Virus record (IMG/VR): IMGVR_UViG_3300026119_000002
Span: 1 to 25,626 of that record
DNA from: a virus
Length of the DNA stretch: 25,626 bases
Reading direction: 5' to 3' (one strand)
The notes under the pieces were generated by a model. That model did not search any database. It was not told where the DNA came from and saw nothing but the letters and a program-made list of their open reading frames with translations. Both the position numbers and the translations under genes were made by a program. Positions 2,641-16,737 of this stretch are shown one piece after another (the stretch's first letter is position 1; every line of letters begins with the position of its first letter).

Positions 2641-3168
2641 TCATTTGGGTTTGTCAGGTGGTTTATTACCATTTAAATCCATATCGGATTCAAACATATC
2701 TGACCCATCCCTTAAATCGTTTAACTCTTCTTTTAATTCTTTATTAAAAACATTTGTTGGTTTTTGTTTTTTCATTTGGTCTTTTAAAAAATCTGAATAA
2801 TCTATCCTTGCTGATGAAGCTTTACCACCTCTATTAAATCTTACTGATACCATTTTATTTGCAAGTAATTGAGCAGCGTGTGCCATATTAAAATCTCTAT
2901 AAATTAAACCTCTTATACAATCAATTACCAATGCAAGGTCTTTTGTAAATGATTCTTTAGTTGTTTTTAAACCCATATCTACAAATTTCTTTAATAAATC
3001 AAACCCAATTTCATCTACATTACCTTCTATAAATTCTCTAGTTTGTTGTTCTTTTAATCTTAATGCAAAAGGTGAATCTTGAGGTTTAGTTATTTTCTTT
3101 TTGATTTTACTTTGTGGAAATAAAATTATTTTAGCACTTTTCTTTTTATCTTTATCCTTATTGTTCAC
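2641..3168 (-). CDS. Conserved-looking hypothetical protein, 175 aa
   Basis: The start is GTG at 3168 with GGTGAG seven bases upstream, inside the end of the glutaredoxin gene. The first 30 residues are very basic (KDKDKKKSAKIILFPQSKIKKK). A helical middle follows (FVDMGLKTTKESFTKDLALVIDCIRGLIYRDFN), and the C-terminus is acidic. Proteins with this layout (short KIILFP-type start, then a helical domain ending in IR.L.YR) seem familiar from T4-like marine phages, but I cannot name the function. Cytoplasmic, no membrane segment. Confidence 0.8.
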   Translation of the reverse strand: MNNKDKDKKKSAKIILFPQSKIKKKITKPQDSPFALRLKEQQTREFIEGNVDEIGFDLLKKFVDMGLKTTKESFTKDLALVIDCIRGLIYRDFNMAHAAQLLANKMVSVRFNRGGKASSARIDYSDFLKDQMKKQKPTNVFNKELKEELNDLRDGSDMFESDMDLNGNKPPDKPK

Positions 3169-3451
3169 GTATTATCTCACCTTTGTAATTAACTAATTTC
3201 TTATCATTAAAATATTCTATAAGTTGATTATAACCACCAACTAATTTATCATCTATTTTAATTTGTGGCATTGCACGTACTTTTTTTCCTATATCTGTTA
3301 TCATTGCGTCAACAGATTTAAATTCTTCTAGTTTCTTTTCTTGAAATTCTAGGCCAAGGCCTTTTAACAAGGCCTTCGCCTTAACACAGTACACACAATT
3401 TTCTTTTGTATATACTGTGATATTTTTAATTAGTATTTGCTGACTCATCAT
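3158..3451 (-). CDS. grx: Glutaredoxin
   Basis: This is a complete 97-residue glutaredoxin. The redox-active CVYC motif is at residues 19-22 after a YTKENC strand-loop, the cis-proline segment is MPQI (61-64), and the glutathione-binding GGYN follows at 72-75. It would reduce disulfides with glutathione, and in T4-like phages it is the natural electron donor for the phage ribonucleotide reductase, whose genes lie at 19653-23730 in this window. AAGGA lies eight bases before the ATG. It overlaps the lipoprotein gene upstream by 26 bases and the next gene by 11, so all are probably co-expressed. Confidence 0.95.
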   Translation of the reverse strand: MMSQQILIKNITVYTKENCVYCVKAKALLKGLGLEFQEKKLEEFKSVDAMITDIGKKVRAMPQIKIDDKLVGGYNQLIEYFNDKKLVNYKGEIIREQ

Positions 3452-4052
3452 TATCTGATTCCTTTTTCATAAGGTTTTCAAATGACTTGTTAGCGTGATA
3501 CTTTAAGTTATAAGCGTCTGTAGCTTGTGCTATTGTATAGTTGAACATTTTGTTGTATTCACCTAATGGCAATCTCAAACCAATCCAAGCTCTATAGTAA
3601 CCGTTTTTTGTTAACGTTACATCTTGAGCAAAAATTTCATAGCCTCTAACTGGTGTATCTTTAATTACATTGACCAATACAGATTCCACTTCACTAACAA
3701 CCGTCTTACTGTTATGTTTACCTATTTCGGTAATAAACTGTTTAGACTGCTTGTTCATTTCGCCTTTGATTATATCAGCAATTTCTGCTTTCGCAATCAT
3801 TTTTGCTTTTTCAATAGCGAGATTCAAACTTGGACTAACAGATGTTCCAACTCCAAAGATACATTCTTTTTCTTTATCTTTACCAAATCTTGCAATATCG
3901 CAAGCTTTAGTTTCAGAAAAATCGGCCATATACCATTTTGGAACGGAATTAACTACTTTTCCAGTTTCATTTTTGATTTTATAATTACCAGCACAATTCG
4001 TCAATAATAGACCTAGTACTGTAACTGATAAAATCTTAATGTATTTGTTCAT
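3426..4052 (-). CDS. LPP20-like lipoprotein
   Basis: A lipoprotein signal peptide is clear: MNKYIKILSVTVLGLLLTNC, with the lipobox L-T-N-C placing the lipidated cysteine at residue 20. The mature part (VPKWYMADFSE, then a long helix in A..KAK..AKAEIAD and a strand-rich end with GYYRAWIGLRLPLGEYN) resembles the LPP20-type bacterial lipoproteins, so it was probably acquired from a host. Residues 23-36 (NYKIKNETGKVVNS) are encoded by a 44-bp sequence found identically in the oxygenase gene at 11023-11652. AAAGGAG precedes the ATG, which shares a base with the stop of a small upstream ORF. Likely role: altering the envelope of the infected cell. Confidence 0.88.
   Translation of the reverse strand: MNKYIKILSVTVLGLLLTNCAGNYKIKNETGKVVNSVPKWYMADFSETKACDIARFGKDKEKECIFGVGTSVSPSLNLAIEKAKMIAKAEIADIIKGEMNKQSKQFITEIGKHNSKTVVSEVESVLVNVIKDTPVRGYEIFAQDVTLTKNGYYRAWIGLRLPLGEYNKMFNYTIAQATDAYNLKYHANKSFENLMKKESDNDESANTN
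3944..3987 (-). repeat. 44-bp perfect repeat, copy 1 (in the lipoprotein gene)
   Basis: Bases 3944-3987 are identical to 11052-11095, in the same orientation and the same reading frame. Both encode NYKIKNETGKVVNS. Identity stops sharply at both ends. This copy lies just after the lipidated cysteine and looks native, because the following VPKWYMADFSE is typical of this lipoprotein family. Confidence 0.95.
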
Positions 4053-4195
4053 TAGTTTTTCACACTCCTTTGTACATTATATAATAGTTCTTGTATTAAG
4101 TCAATGCTGGATTGAGCATAGCCCAAAAAGTCTGAAGCACTAACTCCATATACAATTACTAACAGAAGCACAATTATGATAATAGTTTTTATCAT
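4052..4195 (-). CDS. Small membrane or secreted peptide, 47 aa
   Basis: The ORF starts at ATG 4195, overlapping the upstream stop as ATGA, and ends at 4052 overlapping the next start as TAATG, a tight fit on both sides. It begins MIKTIIIIVLLLVIVYGVSASDF, a strong hydrophobic segment with a plausible signal-peptidase site after VSA, so the short remainder (FLGYAQSSIDLIQELLYNV) may be released or stay anchored. The AAAGGAG near its 3' end is the ribosome-binding site of the lipoprotein gene. Function unknown; the neighbours are all exported proteins. Confidence 0.75.
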   Translation of the reverse strand: MIKTIIIIVLLLVIVYGVSASDFLGYAQSSIDLIQELLYNVQRSVKN

Positions 4196-4704
4196 TTTAC
4201 CTTCCATTCTCCGTTCTCATTTAAACACACTTTTCCGAACGATTTAAAAGCGTGATTTTTTCTACTGTAAAATCTACAATACTCTGGTGTAGCAATATCA
4301 CGGTAGTAAAATTGGGCAAAAAGTTCCCAATAAGAAGGTGTATCTGATACACCACTTCTCCCATCGGAACAATATAATTTCTCTTCTTTTGAAATATTTC
4401 CATTTGATTCTTGTTTAATAATAACTTTTACATAACAAAATTGGTTAGCGTCATTATTTACTGGTTTAACATTATCATATAATATTTTTTGAGAACCATC
4501 TACAACTTTTACACTACGTTGTATAGTTCCATCTGGATTATGCCACTCTATTTCCATTACTTCAGCAGTTTTCTTAAATTCTTTTTTATTTAAATCACAA
4601 TCTACACATAATGAGTTTGCCGCTTGAGCACCACTTACTGCATATGCACATAGTAATAATACTATGAATATTGTTGTAACTACAATTTTATCTGTATTAT
4701 GCAT
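4192..4704 (-). CDS. Secreted cysteine-rich protein, 170 aa
   Basis: A signal peptide is visible (hydrophobic residues about 10-23, then SGAQAANS with a likely cleavage after AQA). The mature protein starts with LCVDCDLNKKEF and holds further cysteines in FCYVK, LYCSDG, EYCRFY and KVCLNE, an arrangement that suits disulfides in the periplasm. I do not recognise the family. GGAG precedes the ATG, which shares a base with the stop of the upstream lipoprotein gene, and its stop overlaps the next small gene. It belongs to the exported-protein run from 5599 to 3426. Confidence 0.83.
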   Translation of the reverse strand: MHNTDKIVVTTIFIVLLLCAYAVSGAQAANSLCVDCDLNKKEFKKTAEVMEIEWHNPDGTIQRSVKVVDGSQKILYDNVKPVNNDANQFCYVKVIIKQESNGNISKEEKLYCSDGRSGVSDTPSYWELFAQFYYRDIATPEYCRFYSRKNHAFKSFGKVCLNENGEWKVK

Positions 4705-5195
4705 TAATTAACTCCATCTGGTTTTTCTATCCATTGTCCATCTGGTAACTGACAAGCACTTCCAAATACTACTTCTCTATTCACTCCACCAATACCTATC
4801 ATTGGCCATCTATTTGTTATATCTACTGTATGGTCATAATCTTTACATTTAATAGGTCCAACCATATAAGATTTTGTTATATGAATTATGCCACCATTTC
4901 CTGTTGATGAATTATACCAATTCGTATATGAAGACCCATACCCACTTGTATTCAAATGGTCTACAAATACGGCATTATGTACGTCTTGATCCCCTTTATA
5001 TAAAATTTCTGCACCTGCAAAGGCAGCGCCTACAGCACACGTAGCAATCAAATATGGATTGTCTGATATGTACTGTAAACATAAAGTTGTTCCTGTTGTT
5101 GCACCCAAGACAGCACCTGTATGTGACCTATTCGCACAATTAGTTAAAAATAAACTAATCGCTAATAGACATATTAGTTTTGCGTATTTGTTCAC
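4704..5195 (-). CDS. Lipoprotein with glycine-zipper-like segment
   Basis: The start is GTG at 5195 with AAGGAA five bases upstream. The signal sequence MNKYAKLICLLAISLFLTNC ends in a lipobox with cysteine at residue 20; its first residues and L-T-N-C match those of the lipoprotein at 3426-4052. A small-residue helix follows (TGAVLGATTGTTLC, then AVGAAFAGAEIL), like glycine-zipper outer-membrane lipoproteins of the 17-kDa surface antigen type. The rest has aromatic and glycine-rich stretches and ends with QLPDGQWIEKPDG. Probably inserted in the outer membrane; role unknown. Confidence 0.83.
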   Translation of the reverse strand: MNKYAKLICLLAISLFLTNCANRSHTGAVLGATTGTTLCLQYISDNPYLIATCAVGAAFAGAEILYKGDQDVHNAVFVDHLNTSGYGSSYTNWYNSSTGNGGIIHITKSYMVGPIKCKDYDHTVDITNRWPMIGIGGVNREVVFGSACQLPDGQWIEKPDGVN

Positions 5196-5358
5196 AAATG
5201 TTCCTTCCGTCTTTACTCATTACAATATAATGTTCTTCATTATTATCAACAACAAATTTACTCATATTATTTTTCTGCCACCAAGTTTCCGCACTTGCGG
5301 ATACTGGTCTAATCCAATGTGTTCCATCATTAGGACTTGTTACGTGAAAATCATCCAT
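5155..5358 (-). CDS. Hypothetical protein, 67 aa
   Basis: A short soluble ORF starting at ATG 5358, with GAAG upstream. It overlaps the preceding gene by eight bases and the following lipoprotein by about 40. The sequence is rich in aromatic and polar residues (THWIRPVSASAETWWQKNN, then SKFVVDNNEEHYIVMSKDG), which looks like a small beta-rich domain. There is no signal peptide, unlike its neighbours. The last third overlaps the next gene in another frame, so its C-terminus is less secure. Family unknown. Confidence 0.6.
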   Translation of the reverse strand: MDDFHVTSPNDGTHWIRPVSASAETWWQKNNMSKFVVDNNEEHYIVMSKDGRNICEQIRKTNMSISD

Positions 5359-5599
5359 TATTATCTTCTTTATTCCTGTTAAATAGATTTGATAATGTTT
5401 GAAATAATCCTGCTAATTGCACTCTTGCTTCTTCCCAAGACTTCTTTTGATATGCAATTGTCTTTTCCTTCTCATTAACTACAAATGTTTTAACAGTGTT
5501 TGATACATCATTAATCTTACTTGTAATTATATTGTCTTCTGCTAATGCAACTGTTCCAGTTAACATAAGAGCGACAATAATTGTTGTAAACTTATTCAT
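5351..5599 (-). CDS. Small secreted protein, 82 aa
   Basis: The start is set at ATG 5599, not the upstream in-frame ATG at 5641, because a strong AGGAGG lies directly upstream and because the protein then begins with a textbook signal peptide (MNKFTTIIVALMLTGTVALA, cleavage before EDN). The mature 62 residues are helical and charged (VKTFVVNEKEKTIAYQKKSWEEARVQLAGLFQTLSNLF), possibly amphipathic. It opens the run of exported proteins that continues to 3426. Family unknown. Confidence 0.82.
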   Translation of the reverse strand: MNKFTTIIVALMLTGTVALAEDNIITSKINDVSNTVKTFVVNEKEKTIAYQKKSWEEARVQLAGLFQTLSNLFNRNKEDNNG

Positions 5600-5609
5600 A
5601 TTTTCCTCC

Positions 5610-5852
5610 TTAATGTAATAAGTGTTTTTTAAACGGTTCAATCTTATCTTTTGATTGATAAACCGTATCCATCATTCCGTCATAATCCTTTGCAGGCATT
5701 ATTGACTTCATAATTTTTAACATTTGACCTAATACTGTCATCTGAACCATTACTGGATCATACTGTTTCATTTCCTTTTGAATCCACTCGTGGAAATTAT
5801 CACATACAGTTTGCATAGGGTCTAATATTTCGTTATTTTGATTTTTTCTCAT
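5610..5852 (-). CDS. Hypothetical protein, 80 aa
   Basis: A small soluble protein, methionine-rich in the middle (MVQMTVLGQMLKIMKSIMP), probably all-helical. The ATG at 5852 lies inside the end of the upstream gene, with a 20-base overlap and no clear ribosome-binding site, so coupling is likely. The order (two cytoplasmic proteins, then exported ones) suggests one transcript from the promoter at 6206-6234. I do not recognise it. Confidence 0.75.
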   Translation of the reverse strand: MRKNQNNEILDPMQTVCDNFHEWIQKEMKQYDPVMVQMTVLGQMLKIMKSIMPAKDYDGMMDTVYQSKDKIEPFKKHLLH

Positions 5853-6168
5853 CTATATCTGGTTCTTCTTCTTGTTCTGCCATTTTTTCTGCATACGTTT
5901 TACCGAATACTGACATATAAAAATGGTCTCTAGGATTAGGACTCTCATATGCTTTCAATAAGTTGTCAAAATTAATTCTTAATCCGTGTTCATAACTTGT
6001 TGGTGATTGTTTCATTAATTCTGCGTGTTCTTTACAAAATTTAATACGATTTTTGTGGATATCGTTTTCTTTATCTTCGTCTAACTTCTTTTTTGATAGT
6101 ATAATATCTTTTGCTTTTGCAATATTAAACTCTTTCCATACGTTATCTTTGTTGTATATAGCACTCAT
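5833..6168 (-). CDS. Hypothetical protein, 111 aa
   Basis: First gene behind the perfect-hexamer promoter at 6206-6234, with a GGGAG element before the ATG. The protein is charged and helical, with a lysine- and aspartate-rich centre (SKKKLDEDKENDIHKNRIKFCKEHAE) and an acidic tail (EQEEEPDIDEKKSK). No signal or membrane segment and no motif I recognise. Its position suggests early and strong expression. Confidence 0.78.
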   Translation of the reverse strand: MSAIYNKDNVWKEFNIAKAKDIILSKKKLDEDKENDIHKNRIKFCKEHAELMKQSPTSYEHGLRINFDNLLKAYESPNPRDHFYMSVFGKTYAEKMAEQEEEPDIDEKKSK

Positions 6169-6205: not shown

Positions 6206-6234
6206 ATTATACATTAAATCTCTTTAAATGTCAA
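6206..6234 (-). promoter_or_regulatory. Perfect-consensus sigma70 promoter (TTGACA - 17 bp - TATAAT)
   Basis: Both hexamers match the sigma70 consensus exactly: TTGACA at 6229-6234 and TATAAT at 6206-6211 on the minus strand, with a 17-base spacer. Transcription would start near 6199, about 30 bases before the ATG at 6168. It should be a very strong early promoter for the unit that includes the exported proteins and the glutaredoxin. Confidence 0.92.
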
Positions 6235-8960: not shown

Positions 8961-9446
8961 TTATGCAACTTCCAGTAGTTCTTTAAAGTCTTTACAATAG
9001 TAACTTAACTTTCTCAAAGCCTTGGCTTCAATTTGTCTTATTCTTTCTGCATTTACAGATAATTTTAAACTAACTTCTTCTAAAGTATGGTCGGTATTCA
9101 TTCCTACACCAAATCTCATTCTTAAAATTCTTTCTTCTCTAGGTGTTAAATAAGTAAGAGCTTGAGTGATTTTGTCTTTTATCTGTTTTTTTGCAATGAT
9201 ACTGTCAAAGTTGATTTCACTTATCATATTATCAGCAGCGGACATATCAGTAGATTTAAATATGGCGTCTTCTTTTTTATATTTCACTTGTTTTGTCTTT
9301 TGCATTGCAAAATATACCTTACCTTTTTCTTTTCTAAGCATAGGTCTATAATAGTTTACAGAATTGTCAAGTGAGTAAACTTTTCTTGTATAGTATCTTT
9401 TTTTAATTGTTGAGTAGGTTTGTATTATAGTGTTTTTCTTAATCAT
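8961..9446 (-). CDS. Sigma70 region 4-only protein
   Basis: Residues about 96-155 closely match region 4 of a bacterial housekeeping sigma factor of the RpoD type: LTPREERILRMRFGVGMNTD, then HTLEEVSLKLSV, then ERIRQIEAKALRKL. The first 95 residues are basic and show no region 2 motifs, and at 161 residues it is far too short for a full sigma factor. Region 4 normally binds the beta-flap of RNA polymerase and the -35 element. In the recognition helix the residue matching E. coli R584 is alanine (A133), while the E585 and R588 equivalents remain. It may redirect host polymerase, replace gp33-type function alongside a gp55 sigma, or block the host factor. It has its own promoter, part of the duplicated cassette, with no visible ribosome-binding site. 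Confidence 0.9.
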   Translation of the reverse strand: MIKKNTIIQTYSTIKKRYYTRKVYSLDNSVNYYRPMLRKEKGKVYFAMQKTKQVKYKKEDAIFKSTDMSAADNMISEINFDSIIAKKQIKDKITQALTYLTPREERILRMRFGVGMNTDHTLEEVSLKLSVNAERIRQIEAKALRKLSYYCKDFKELLEVA

Positions 9447-11652: not shown

Positions 11653-12140
11653 ATTAATAATTTTAATTTTTCAACTAATTCAATATCTATTTTAGATAGC
11701 CATTTCTCATAACTAAAAATTTCATAGTTTTTATACTTATTTGTACGGAATCTAGCCCATTTAAAATCAAATGCTACCAATTGTCCTTTATTTAATGTCA
11801 TATTACGTAAAGCTCCATTAAGTTTAAATACATTTTTATCTTTAAAAAATTTATACATTTCTAAAGTTTGACTTGCTAAATCTTTAGGTCTACTTAAATA
11901 ATGAACTTTAGTTAAATCTGGTCCATAAAAACTAGTAATAACATAATTATTACCAACTTCTAATAATTCAGGCACCCATTTACTTTTTAAACAATTAAGC
12001 CAAAAAACTTCATTTTTTAAAAGGGCAAAATTATCTTCTTCTTCATAATTAAATATCTTTTTAACTGTACCGCCTTTAACCTCAATCATCTGCGAATCCG
12101 CATATGTAGCGTTTATTTGATTTTCTATAAGTTTATTCAT
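11649..12140 (-). CDS. Kinase-like protein with degenerate active-site motifs, 163 aa
   Basis: The arrangement recalls small protein-kinase-like folds of the aminoglycoside or lipopolysaccharide kinase type: a glycine/lysine start (KGGTVKKIFNY), a hinge-like VGNNYVITSFYGPDL, then NGALRNMTLNKGQLVAFDFKWARF, which lines up with the HGDLxxxN and DFD/DFG motifs. The catalytic-loop aspartate appears to be alanine (NGAL in place of HGDL), so it may be inactive or use other chemistry. The start is ATG 12140 within the end of guaC; an upstream in-frame TTG is unlikely. It lies between GMP reductase and the oxygenase. Confidence 0.6.
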   Translation of the reverse strand: MNKLIENQINATYADSQMIEVKGGTVKKIFNYEEEDNFALLKNEVFWLNCLKSKWVPELLEVGNNYVITSFYGPDLTKVHYLSRPKDLASQTLEMYKFFKDKNVFKLNGALRNMTLNKGQLVAFDFKWARFRTNKYKNYEIFSYEKWLSKIDIELVEKLKLLI

Positions 12141-13179
12141 ATGATTCAAATACTGTATTTAATGGTTGTACACATCTAACAAAACTTGCACATTTAGGTA
12201 TATCTTTTAATCGTCTTGCACCAATATAGGTACAACTTGAACGAACACCACCTAATATATCTTCAACTGTTTCTTTTACAGATCCTCTATCAGATAATAT
12301 AACTGCTCGTCCTTCATTACCTCTATAACCATCTTTTCTTTTACCGTGTACCTCTCTTGCTCTATCGGAACTCATCCCATAAAATTCTCTTTTACCATCT
12401 TTTAATTCTGTTTCTGATTCATTATGTCCTGCCAACATACCACCTAACATTACAAAATGAGCACCTGCGCCAAATGCTTTTGCAATATCTCCAGGCATAT
12501 TACATCCACCATCTGCAACTATATGACCACCAACACCATTAGCAGCGTCAGCACACTCCATTACAGCACTAAATTGAGGTACTCCTACACCTGCCATTGT
12601 TCTAGTTGTACATACACTACCTGGTCCAATACCTACTTTAACTACGTCTGCACCTCTTATAATTAACTCTTCGGTCATTTCTGCTGTCACTACATTACCT
12701 GCAATTATAGTTTTATCTGGATATTCATCCCTTATTTTTGCTATAAAATCTGAAAAATTTGTATGATATCCATTTGCCACATCTATAGTAATAAACTTAA
12801 CATCTGGATAATTATTTAATACGTGTTGCAATGTATTATAATCTTCAGCGTCTTCTTTCCATAATCTACCTGTGCCTGTACATACTGAAAGATACTTTAA
12901 TTTAATACCTTCACCAATTGCTTTTTTCCATTGTTCTATTGTTGTTATCTTTGTAATAACAGTCATCATTTTATATTCTTGTATAACTTTCGCCATACTA
13001 AATGTACCAACACCATCCATATTAGACGCTATAATTGGACAACACTCATACGTTTCACCTGAATGCCTAAACGTAAATGACCTTGTCATTTTAACATCTT
13101 TTCTTGATGATAATGTTGAACGTTTTGGTTTTAATAATACGTCTTTATAATCTAATTTTATTTCGTTATCTAATCTCAT
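12133..13179 (-). CDS. guaC: GMP reductase
   Basis: At 348 residues with no CBS domain, and matching the E. coli GuaC pattern throughout (DYKDVLLKPKRSTLSSR, NMDGVGTFSMA, IDVANGY), this is GMP reductase rather than IMP dehydrogenase. The catalytic loop GIGPGSVCTTR carries C190 and T192, and E289 lies in YRGNEGRAV, as in known GMP reductases. It converts GMP with NADPH to IMP and ammonia, feeding guanine nucleotides back toward adenine nucleotides. Placement inside a glycan island is unexpected. The gene is intact and overlaps the kinase-like gene by eight bases. A plausible benefit is shifting purines toward A for an AT-rich phage genome. Confidence 0.93.
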   Translation of the reverse strand: MRLDNEIKLDYKDVLLKPKRSTLSSRKDVKMTRSFTFRHSGETYECCPIIASNMDGVGTFSMAKVIQEYKMMTVITKITTIEQWKKAIGEGIKLKYLSVCTGTGRLWKEDAEDYNTLQHVLNNYPDVKFITIDVANGYHTNFSDFIAKIRDEYPDKTIIAGNVVTAEMTEELIIRGADVVKVGIGPGSVCTTRTMAGVGVPQFSAVMECADAANGVGGHIVADGGCNMPGDIAKAFGAGAHFVMLGGMLAGHNESETELKDGKREFYGMSSDRAREVHGKRKDGYRGNEGRAVILSDRGSVKETVEDILGGVRSSCTYIGARRLKDIPKCASFVRCVQPLNTVFESYE

Positions 13180-15648: not shown

Positions 15649-15731
15649 ATTAATCCTTTAAACCTTAACATCAAGTATATTGTTATTATACAAATAACTA
15701 CTAACAATGTTATTGTTCCTTTATATTTCAT
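15645..15731 (-). CDS. Tiny membrane peptide, 28 aa
   Basis: ATG 15731 lies inside the last codons of the dehydratase gene. The product is a basic start (MKYKG), a hydrophobic segment (TITLLVVICIITIYLML) and RFKGLI. It overlaps the next tiny ORF as ATGA. The two form a tandem pair of one-segment membrane peptides in an otherwise empty 145-base gap. Confidence 0.5.
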   Translation of the reverse strand: MKYKGTITLLVVICIITIYLMLRFKGLI

Positions 15732-16737
15732 CTGGTCTCTTAAAATATCTTTTTCTATCAGCATCAACCATTTCTTTCATTAAACTTTCTACATTATGTT
15801 TATGTTCCCACCCTAATACTTTTTTTGCTTTACTTGCGTCACCTTGTAATACATTTACTTCAGCAGGTCTTAAATGTTTCTTATCTGTAGTAATAAGTTT
15901 AAGTTTACCTACTTTAGTAAAACACTCTTCATCTTTCCAATAATGTGGGAGATCCTGATAATCTAATGCCATATCTGCAAATTCTTTTACTGTATGAATT
16001 TTACCAGTTGCTAGAACATAATCATCAGGTTTATCGTGTTGTAACATTTGCCACATACCTCTAACAAAATCCTCAGCGTGTCCCCAATCTCTCTTTGCAT
16101 ATAAATTTCCTAAAACAATAGGTGCGCCATTACTTTTCCACAATGCTAAACCTTTTGATATTTTTCTAGTTACAAAATCTTCACCTCTATGGGCACTTTC
16201 GTGATTAAATAATATTCCACAACACGTAAACATATCATACGACTCTCTATAATTAACTGTTATATGATGAGCATATAATTTTGCAACACCATATGGAGAC
16301 CTAGGCCAAAATCTAGTTGTTTCTGTTTGTGGAGTTTCAAATGCTTTACCATACAGTTCACTTGTACTGGCTTGATAGAATTTTATTTTAGGATTTACTT
16401 GTCTTATACTTTCTAATATTCTTAAACACCCCACAGCGTCAATTAAAGTAGTAAGTTCTGGTTGTTTAAATGATAACCATACAAATGATTGTGCCGCTAA
16501 GTTATAAACTTCATCTAGTTTTGTATCTTCTATTGCTCTTCTTATATTTGCTTGGTCCATAACATCTAATTCAACAAACTCAATATCTTTTGTTATTCCC
16601 ATTTCATCTAATCGCCAATGTTTTGGTGATGTGCTTCGTCTTTGTCCACCATAAACTTTATAACCTTTATTTAATAATAGTTTCGCTAGATAAGCGCCAT
16701 CTTGTCCTGTTATACCTGTAATCAATGCTGTCTTCAT
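15721..16737 (-). CDS. gmd: GDP-mannose 4,6-dehydratase
   Basis: A short-chain dehydrogenase fold with the NAD(P) motif GITGQDGAYL (8-17), STSELYG (S126, E127) and the catalytic pair Y149 and K153 in SPYGVAK, plus LFNHESAHRGEDFVTRKI, typical of Gmd. It turns GDP-mannose into GDP-4-keto-6-deoxy-mannose, the precursor of fucose, rhamnose or perosamine sugars. The second-step enzyme is not in this window. The substrate-side loop reads SFVWLSFKQPE, slightly unlike the usual SFV.VSF.QP. AAGGAATTG precedes the ATG, which overlaps the upstream stop as ATGA. Length (338) is normal. Confidence 0.93.
   Translation of the reverse strand: MKTALITGITGQDGAYLAKLLLNKGYKVYGGQRRSTSPKHWRLDEMGITKDIEFVELDVMDQANIRRAIEDTKLDEVYNLAAQSFVWLSFKQPELTTLIDAVGCLRILESIRQVNPKIKFYQASTSELYGKAFETPQTETTRFWPRSPYGVAKLYAHHITVNYRESYDMFTCCGILFNHESAHRGEDFVTRKISKGLALWKSNGAPIVLGNLYAKRDWGHAEDFVRGMWQMLQHDKPDDYVLATGKIHTVKEFADMALDYQDLPHYWKDEECFTKVGKLKLITTDKKHLRPAEVNVLQGDASKAKKVLGWEHKHNVESLMKEMVDADRKRYFKRPDEI

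Follow-up and report, generated by a model that had tools for sequence, protein, structure and literature searches.

An LPP20-centred run of exported proteins in a pelagimyophage as a candidate early envelope-remodelling cassette

Layout and conservation of the exported run

The stretch of DNA analysed in this study (the window) is the whole 25,626-base virus fragment IMGVR_UViG_3300026119_000002 of a T4-like pelagimyophage, kin of the phages Mosig and HTVC008M, and the system in question is a run of genes which encodes an LPP20-like lipoprotein together with several other exported proteins (Table 1). The run genes are all found on the minus strand, where neighbours overlap or abut, and a ribosome site is clear for some of them. 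A preliminary description of this DNA had placed two lipoproteins, two signal-peptide proteins and a small hydrophobic peptide in one overlapping run at 3426-5599. All five proteins were recovered, as the hydrophobic N-termini of the LPP20-like protein and lip4704 end in L-T-N-C, sp4192 and sp5351 are signal-peptide-like, and tm4052 is a membrane peptide; exported and membrane proteins were called here by a simple hydropathy rule and not by a signal-peptide program. The overlapping arrangement was also seen, with a cytosolic open reading frame (ORF) of 67 residues sitting inside it, and the run was found not to end at 3426, since the glutaredoxin gene overlaps the LPP20-like gene there.

A hydrophobic N-terminus was found in 10 of the 47 minus-strand ORFs of the window and in 5 of the 8 within the run, giving a hypergeometric P of 0.007 at this position and a permutation P of 0.13 for any 8 consecutive ORFs; judged within the window alone, the clustering of exported genes is only suggestive. 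The exported run is counted as real because its gene order is conserved across related loci. The comparison covered 107 phage loci, namely the best 80 of 270 viral-contig relatives, 25 loci reached with the HTVC008M protein, Mosig and HTVC008M, some of which are near copies (L210 is the HTVC008M record again). The order lipoprotein, Cys protein, membrane peptide and LPP20 was kept in all 84 loci having more than 1.3 kb before the LPP20 gene (62 distinct upstream sequences), and glutaredoxin was the next gene in 102/102 loci with more than 700 bp after it. Among 50,697 phage records searched at an expectation value (E) of 1e-5, the LPP20-like protein of the window matched Mosig EXVC030M (64%) and HTVC008M (40%, two accessions) and no other record. 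The stretch of primase, reductase alpha and reductase beta follows the Mosig order by position, the window genes being named by sight.

Table 1. Features of the run and related elements; run genes are in order of transcription, and in the presence counts over the 107 phage loci those cut short score as misses
Feature	Position	Strand	Basis or remark
Promoter P1, TTGACA-17-TATAAT	6206..6234	-	37 bp before gene 5833-6168
First gene after P1, cytosolic, 111 aa	5833..6168	-	present in 64/107 loci
Cytosolic protein, 80 aa	5610..5852	-	ORF and hydropathy
sp5351, signal-peptide protein, helical, 82 aa	5351..5599	-	present in 68/107 loci
Cytosolic ORF within run, 67 aa	5155..5358	-	present in 62/107 loci
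lip4704, 17-kDa-antigen-like lipoprotein, 163 aa	4704..5195	-	lipobox and sub-cut-off PF16998
sp4192, exported or N-anchored Cys-rich protein, 170 aa	4192..4704	-	18-row alignment
tm4052, membrane peptide, 51 aa; P2 within its coding sequence	4052..4207	-	
Promoter P2, TTGACT-17-TATAAT	4076..4104	-	23 bp before LPP20-like gene
LPP20-like lipoprotein, 208 aa	3426..4052	-	lipobox and predicted fold
Glutaredoxin, overlaps LPP20-like gene	3158..3451	-	Pfam PF00462
exp1126, further conserved exported protein, 113 aa	1126..1467	-	present in 69/107 loci
4.9-kb SAR11 integrative element	L252:4484-9424 and L248:4352-9294		direct repeats

The lipobox cysteine of the LPP20-like protein is invariant in 16/16 aligned phage proteins and in all 14 rows of an alignment of phage and host proteins. 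The protein scored 17.4 bits against Pfam PF02169 (LPP20), below the cut-off of 25.9. Its structural model has a mean predicted local distance difference test score (pLDDT) of 67, with core blocks at 71-87, and the first match of this model was Helicobacter pylori Lpp20 (HP1456) both in Foldseek (E 1.7e-3) and in VIA-align (Z 9.4, 3.5 A over 107 residues), followed in VIA-align by HP1454 (Z 6.4), Tip-alpha (Z 5.9) and, more weakly, FlgT (Z 4.8). The phage protein is hence predicted to fold like H. pylori Lpp20, with which it has in common the predicted fold and the lipoprotein signal, whereas the identity is at most 15% and the PF02169 cut-off is not reached. Sequence search of the Protein Data Bank gave one irrelevant weak match for the LPP20 profile and none for that of lip4704. 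LPP20 proteins are already known from phages, since a viral structure library contained LPP20-labelled proteins of other phages, one at E 1.7e-6. One such lipoprotein (S5WJL7) belongs to Campylobacter phage CP8, a T4-like phage by annotation; its structural match is weak (E 3.1e-3), and no LPP20 label was found in the first 50 kb of the CP8 genome. In the OM43 phage Melnitz, the LPP20-like gene follows that of a short membrane peptide and precedes one for a cell wall hydrolase.

Among the other run proteins, lip4704 scored 19.1 bits against PF16998 (17-kDa outer membrane antigen), below the cut-off of 26.6, and its lipobox cysteine is invariant in 15/15 relatives. Invariant cysteines and a P-x-YW-x-LFAQFYY core characterize sp4192 in all 18 aligned rows; its model (mean pLDDT 50.5) was too poor for a structure search. 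Paralogy of sp4192 and lip4704 was unsupported (hhalign probability 9.5), and the PHROGs profiles gave weak matches for six run proteins, none of them useful.

Promoters and timing of expression

The exact TTGACA-17-TATAAT sequence occurs once in the 25.6 kb of the window, at 6234-6206 on the minus strand (P1). The preliminary description had a perfect-consensus promoter leading the run; this promoter exists, and it lies outside 3426-5599, 600 bp upstream, with two cytosolic genes (5833-6168 and 5610-5852) coming first. A second promoter, P2, which that description did not contain, is present within the membrane-peptide gene just before the LPP20-like gene. Sites of the P1 type, scoring at least 11/12, were found ahead of the counterpart of gene 5833-6168 in 14/39 distinct loci (0.2 expected), and P2-type sites of the same quality precede LPP20 in 35/46 distinct loci, 23-26 bp from the start (0.3 expected). 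Comparable sites were found before lip4704 in 1/47, before sp4192 in 1/54 and before glutaredoxin in 0/52. When each of the 48 distinct membrane-peptide genes was recoded synonymously, 2.67 coding sequences were expected to hold a P2-type site against the 36 observed, and 0.14 against 6 for the exact consensus. Related sequences are not independent and the promoter counts therefore overstate the number of events, with the gap still being wide. Since P2 is kept beyond the coding constraint, the LPP20 gene seems to have its own selected promoter. The minus strand of the whole window holds 5 sites of at least 11/12, where 1.7 are expected.

In Mosig, TATAAATA late motifs are found directly before many structural genes, and no T4-type late motif was found in the run of the window. 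Expression of the run is probably of the host-sigma type and hence early, because two host-type promoters are conserved and the late motif is missing from this run. The early part of the earlier proposal of early, strong export is thus backed by conserved promoters, and for its strength the consensus match is the only ground. Elsewhere in the window, exp1126 has an early-type promoter ahead of it at 1539-1511, and a 161-residue protein with sigma-70 region 4 is encoded at 8961-9446, with an early-type promoter-like site near its start.

Relatives in SAR11 genomes and on an integrative element

With a profile of 16 phage LPP20-like proteins, matches were found in 13 of 247 SAR11 genomes, and 5 of the 13 had E values of 1e-27 or better. 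A second profile of 14 phage and host proteins, partly built from the matches of the first, found matches in 32/397 SAR11 genomes at E 1e-3, of which 20 (~5% of the genomes) were at 1e-29 or better, and in 2/385 genomes of a class-wide draw. In 147 SAR11 genomes PF02169 gave no match, a result which is uninformative as the control was also silent, and PF16998 gave one match below its cut-off. Lipoboxes in the SAR11 loci (1 in 327 ORFs) were too few to use.

Two main gene arrangements were observed. Type A (6 loci) consists of a helical protein, LPP20, a 114-residue Cys protein, lipoprotein A and lipoprotein B; one of its loci is cut by the contig end, leaving four genes visible. Comparison of profiles with the phage families gave E values of 6.7e-26 for LPP20, 1.6e-13 for the helical protein (the sp5351 counterpart, by hhalign), 3.9e-8 for lipoprotein B, 4.8e-6 for the 114-residue protein and 1.7e-5 for lipoprotein A. 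Eight mismatched profile pairs used as controls ranged from 4.5e-5 (signal peptide only) to 0.27, and because such controls reach 4.5e-5 via signal peptides, the matches of the 114-residue protein and lipoprotein A are only suggestive. On these comparisons, type A appears to have clear counterparts to three phage families and weak ones to one or two more. Moreover, the helical gene stands directly before LPP20 in the phage loci L227-L229, as in type A. A type-A LPP20 was found on a viral contig in none of 17 candidate stretches.

Type B (14 loci) has the order 80-residue protein, 84-residue protein and LPP20, with the 84-residue gene in 13/14 and the 80-residue gene in 9/14 loci. The 80-residue protein has a weak likeness to phage exp1126 (E 2.5e-6 over 44 columns), which is suggestive only; the 84-residue protein was tried as a relative of sp4192 and gave no match. 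A serine recombinase is encoded near 6/14 type-B loci, and a gene of a regulator-like family with a weak CII-like signal near 5/14 type-B and 4/6 type-A loci. A tree of 28 LPP20 proteins has type A (99/99) and type B (100/100) as one group each, and the 15 phage rows as one group with weak support (79/70). The deep order of this tree is unsure because of long branches.

In two of the type-B loci (L248 and L252), a pair of direct repeats spaced 4.9 kb apart encloses the unit together with a serine recombinase, tRNA-Leu(caa) and a tyrosine integrase. The pair is exact over 24 bp in L252 and 91% identical over 23 bp in L248; other short repeats look like chance. The site was compared in 30 loci, kept from the 67 of 78 genomes with the flanking membrane-protein gene. 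It is intact in 27 of these, with the membrane-protein gene, a whole tRNA-Leu(caa) and a ligase-type gene within ~330 bp; the other three are L252's own genome, a locus with ~1.1 kb extra and one from which the tRNA and ligase-type gene are absent. In L252, tRNA-like pieces were found outside both direct repeats. These pieces and the intact sites make it very likely that the element splits the host tRNA-Leu and supplies a replacement. Of its cargo, the LPP20 unit is the part most readily recognised; the ends of the element were shown for 2/14 type-B loci. Integrative elements carrying a tRNA, of the tycheposon-like type, are known. They likewise have a tyrosine integrase, a replacement tRNA and a small cargo, whereas the SAR11 element carries the LPP20 unit as cargo.

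Several other genes were observed around the SAR11 units. Neighbours of type A in L243-L246 are the regulator-like gene, a PD-(D/E)XK (Cas4-like) nuclease, a 98-residue protein and an 850-residue protein, the last of which gave a weak Castor/Pollux channel signal. A pilin-like protein is encoded inside 3/6 type-A units (L243:9085-9594, L246:10026-10583 and L247:5930-6439), recognised in L243 from an N-methylation motif by Pfam and in L246 and L247 by sight and BLAST. Proteins with many DUF4116 repeats adjoin SAR11 LPP20 units at L253:2476-4524 and L244:6823-7641. L250 and L251 have weaker LPP20 matches in a different operon, with a 320-residue lipoprotein, a secreted protein of 265-271 residues and a 500-residue protein.

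Proposed envelope remodelling and its alternatives

The run is tentatively read as an early envelope-remodelling cassette, most likely a system for superinfection exclusion or receptor masking (probability about 0.45). Envelope remodelling fits better than virion structure or lysis because the secreted set is conserved, the promoters are of host type and the host relatives are accessory and sometimes mobile. The preliminary description had proposed superinfection exclusion or alteration of the host surface. This is plausible, and the mobile host units strengthen it, as do surface-sugar genes lying upstream. Two observations fit such a theme of surface change, namely that the window has a GDP-mannose dehydratase gene upstream and that glycosyltransferases are annotated upstream in Mosig. 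The dehydratase lies at 15721-16737 and a protein with an IMP dehydrogenase/GMP reductase domain at 12133-13179, and other window genes nearby look surface-sugar-related by sight.

Under this proposal, host RNA polymerase would read the run from P1 soon after infection and P2 would add extra LPP20 lipoprotein. The two lipoproteins would be placed in the outer membrane and the small peptide in the inner membrane, with the Cys-rich and helical proteins in the periplasm between them. Jointly, the exported proteins may keep further phages out by covering or changing an outer-membrane receptor or the path of DNA entry, and the SAR11 copies might serve the cell, or the mobile element carrying them, in the same way. 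It is possible, if rather doubtful, that a shared exclusion system of the SAR11 world is involved, in which phage, element and cell would compete with versions of one LPP20-centred weapon.

A number of observations weigh against the exclusion reading. P2 is missing from the HTVC008M clade, where a late motif lies within LPP20 a short way ahead of glutaredoxin (14/80 distinct segments); the P2 position of Mosig scores only 10/12, and a late motif precedes the Mosig homologue of exp1126, which may be expressed late there. No sequence match to a known exclusion protein was obtained for the run proteins in Pfam and PHROGs. PADLOC recognised no full defence system among 10 proteins flanking the host units, two PD-(D/E)XK proteins giving Cas4-like nuclease and weak DruK-type matches only. 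The cell wall hydrolase of Melnitz, which fits lysis, is to be counted here as well.

Of the alternatives, an accessory part of curli-type (type VIII) secretion, with a CsgG-type pore that the LPP20 lipoprotein and the periplasmic proteins would assist, is unlikely but stands first. The genes csgG and csgF are reported in pelagimyophages and Melnitz (PMC9004378, PMC7029224, PMC9599517), a GNA1162-like lipoprotein with repeats is encoded next to an LPP20 gene in one non-SAR11 alphaproteobacterium, and FlgT is among the weaker fold matches mentioned above. However, csgGF of Melnitz adjoin thyX and the transfer-messenger RNA gene according to PMC9004378, several kb from its LPP20 gene, and no Pfam match to a curli-type protein, CsgG or CsgF was found in 10 proteins of the run region or among the type-A proteins scanned.

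Slightly less credence is given to a role in envelope integrity, nutrient uptake or redox support of the infected cell through proteins of a host-type envelope operon. The SAR11 type-A units do resemble ordinary envelope operons, and the 17-kDa-antigen-like and Cys-rich proteins with the adjoining glutaredoxin would suit it; the LPP20 units are, however, patchy and partly mobile in the host, which argues against a core host function. Lysis, by spanin-like disruption of the outer membrane through the lipoproteins and the membrane peptide, appears quite improbable. The membrane-peptide and lipoprotein genes are adjacent and the Melnitz hydrolase is the best point in its favour, but the host-type promoters before the run and LPP20 speak against it, SAR11 cells carry homologous units in their genomes and would be harmed by them if these served lysis, and the spanin profile match was weak (E 0.18) and to a signal-peptide stretch. 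No lysis gene was recognised among the window proteins scanned. A role of the run proteins as virion or structural components, for which conservation alone speaks, is by far the least probable reading given the secretion signals and host-type promoters, and is unlikely because no structural genes accompany the homologous SAR11 units.

Phages are known to encode envelope exclusion proteins, an example being the outer-membrane exclusion lipoprotein Llp of phage T5. An LPP20-centred cassette of the exclusion type would act like T5 Llp as an early lipoprotein at the outer membrane, differing from it as a multi-protein set. The csgGF genes of pelagimyophages likewise encode outer-membrane proteins in the same phage group, whereas they are different genes at a separate locus (PMC7029224, PMC9004378, PMC9599517). 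Protection from superinfection has been proposed for curli fibres (PMC9599517), surface-sugar genes (PMC7029224) and an S-layer-type protein (PMC9004378). No description of the cassette was found in the titles and abstract starts listed by open-access searches on pelagiphage or LPP20 phage lipoproteins. A set of several proteins built around LPP20 and shared with SAR11 mobile elements would add a new variant to such exclusion proteins.

Few entities in the sea are as abundant as SAR11 and its phages, and to our knowledge the means by which SAR11 keeps further phages out seem largely open. The conserved exported set, together with its host-type promoters and its relatives on host mobile elements, makes phage exclusion in SAR11 experimentally approachable. 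Further, our reading offers a candidate purpose for genes that carry hypothetical annotations in Mosig and, for the most part, in HTVC008M.

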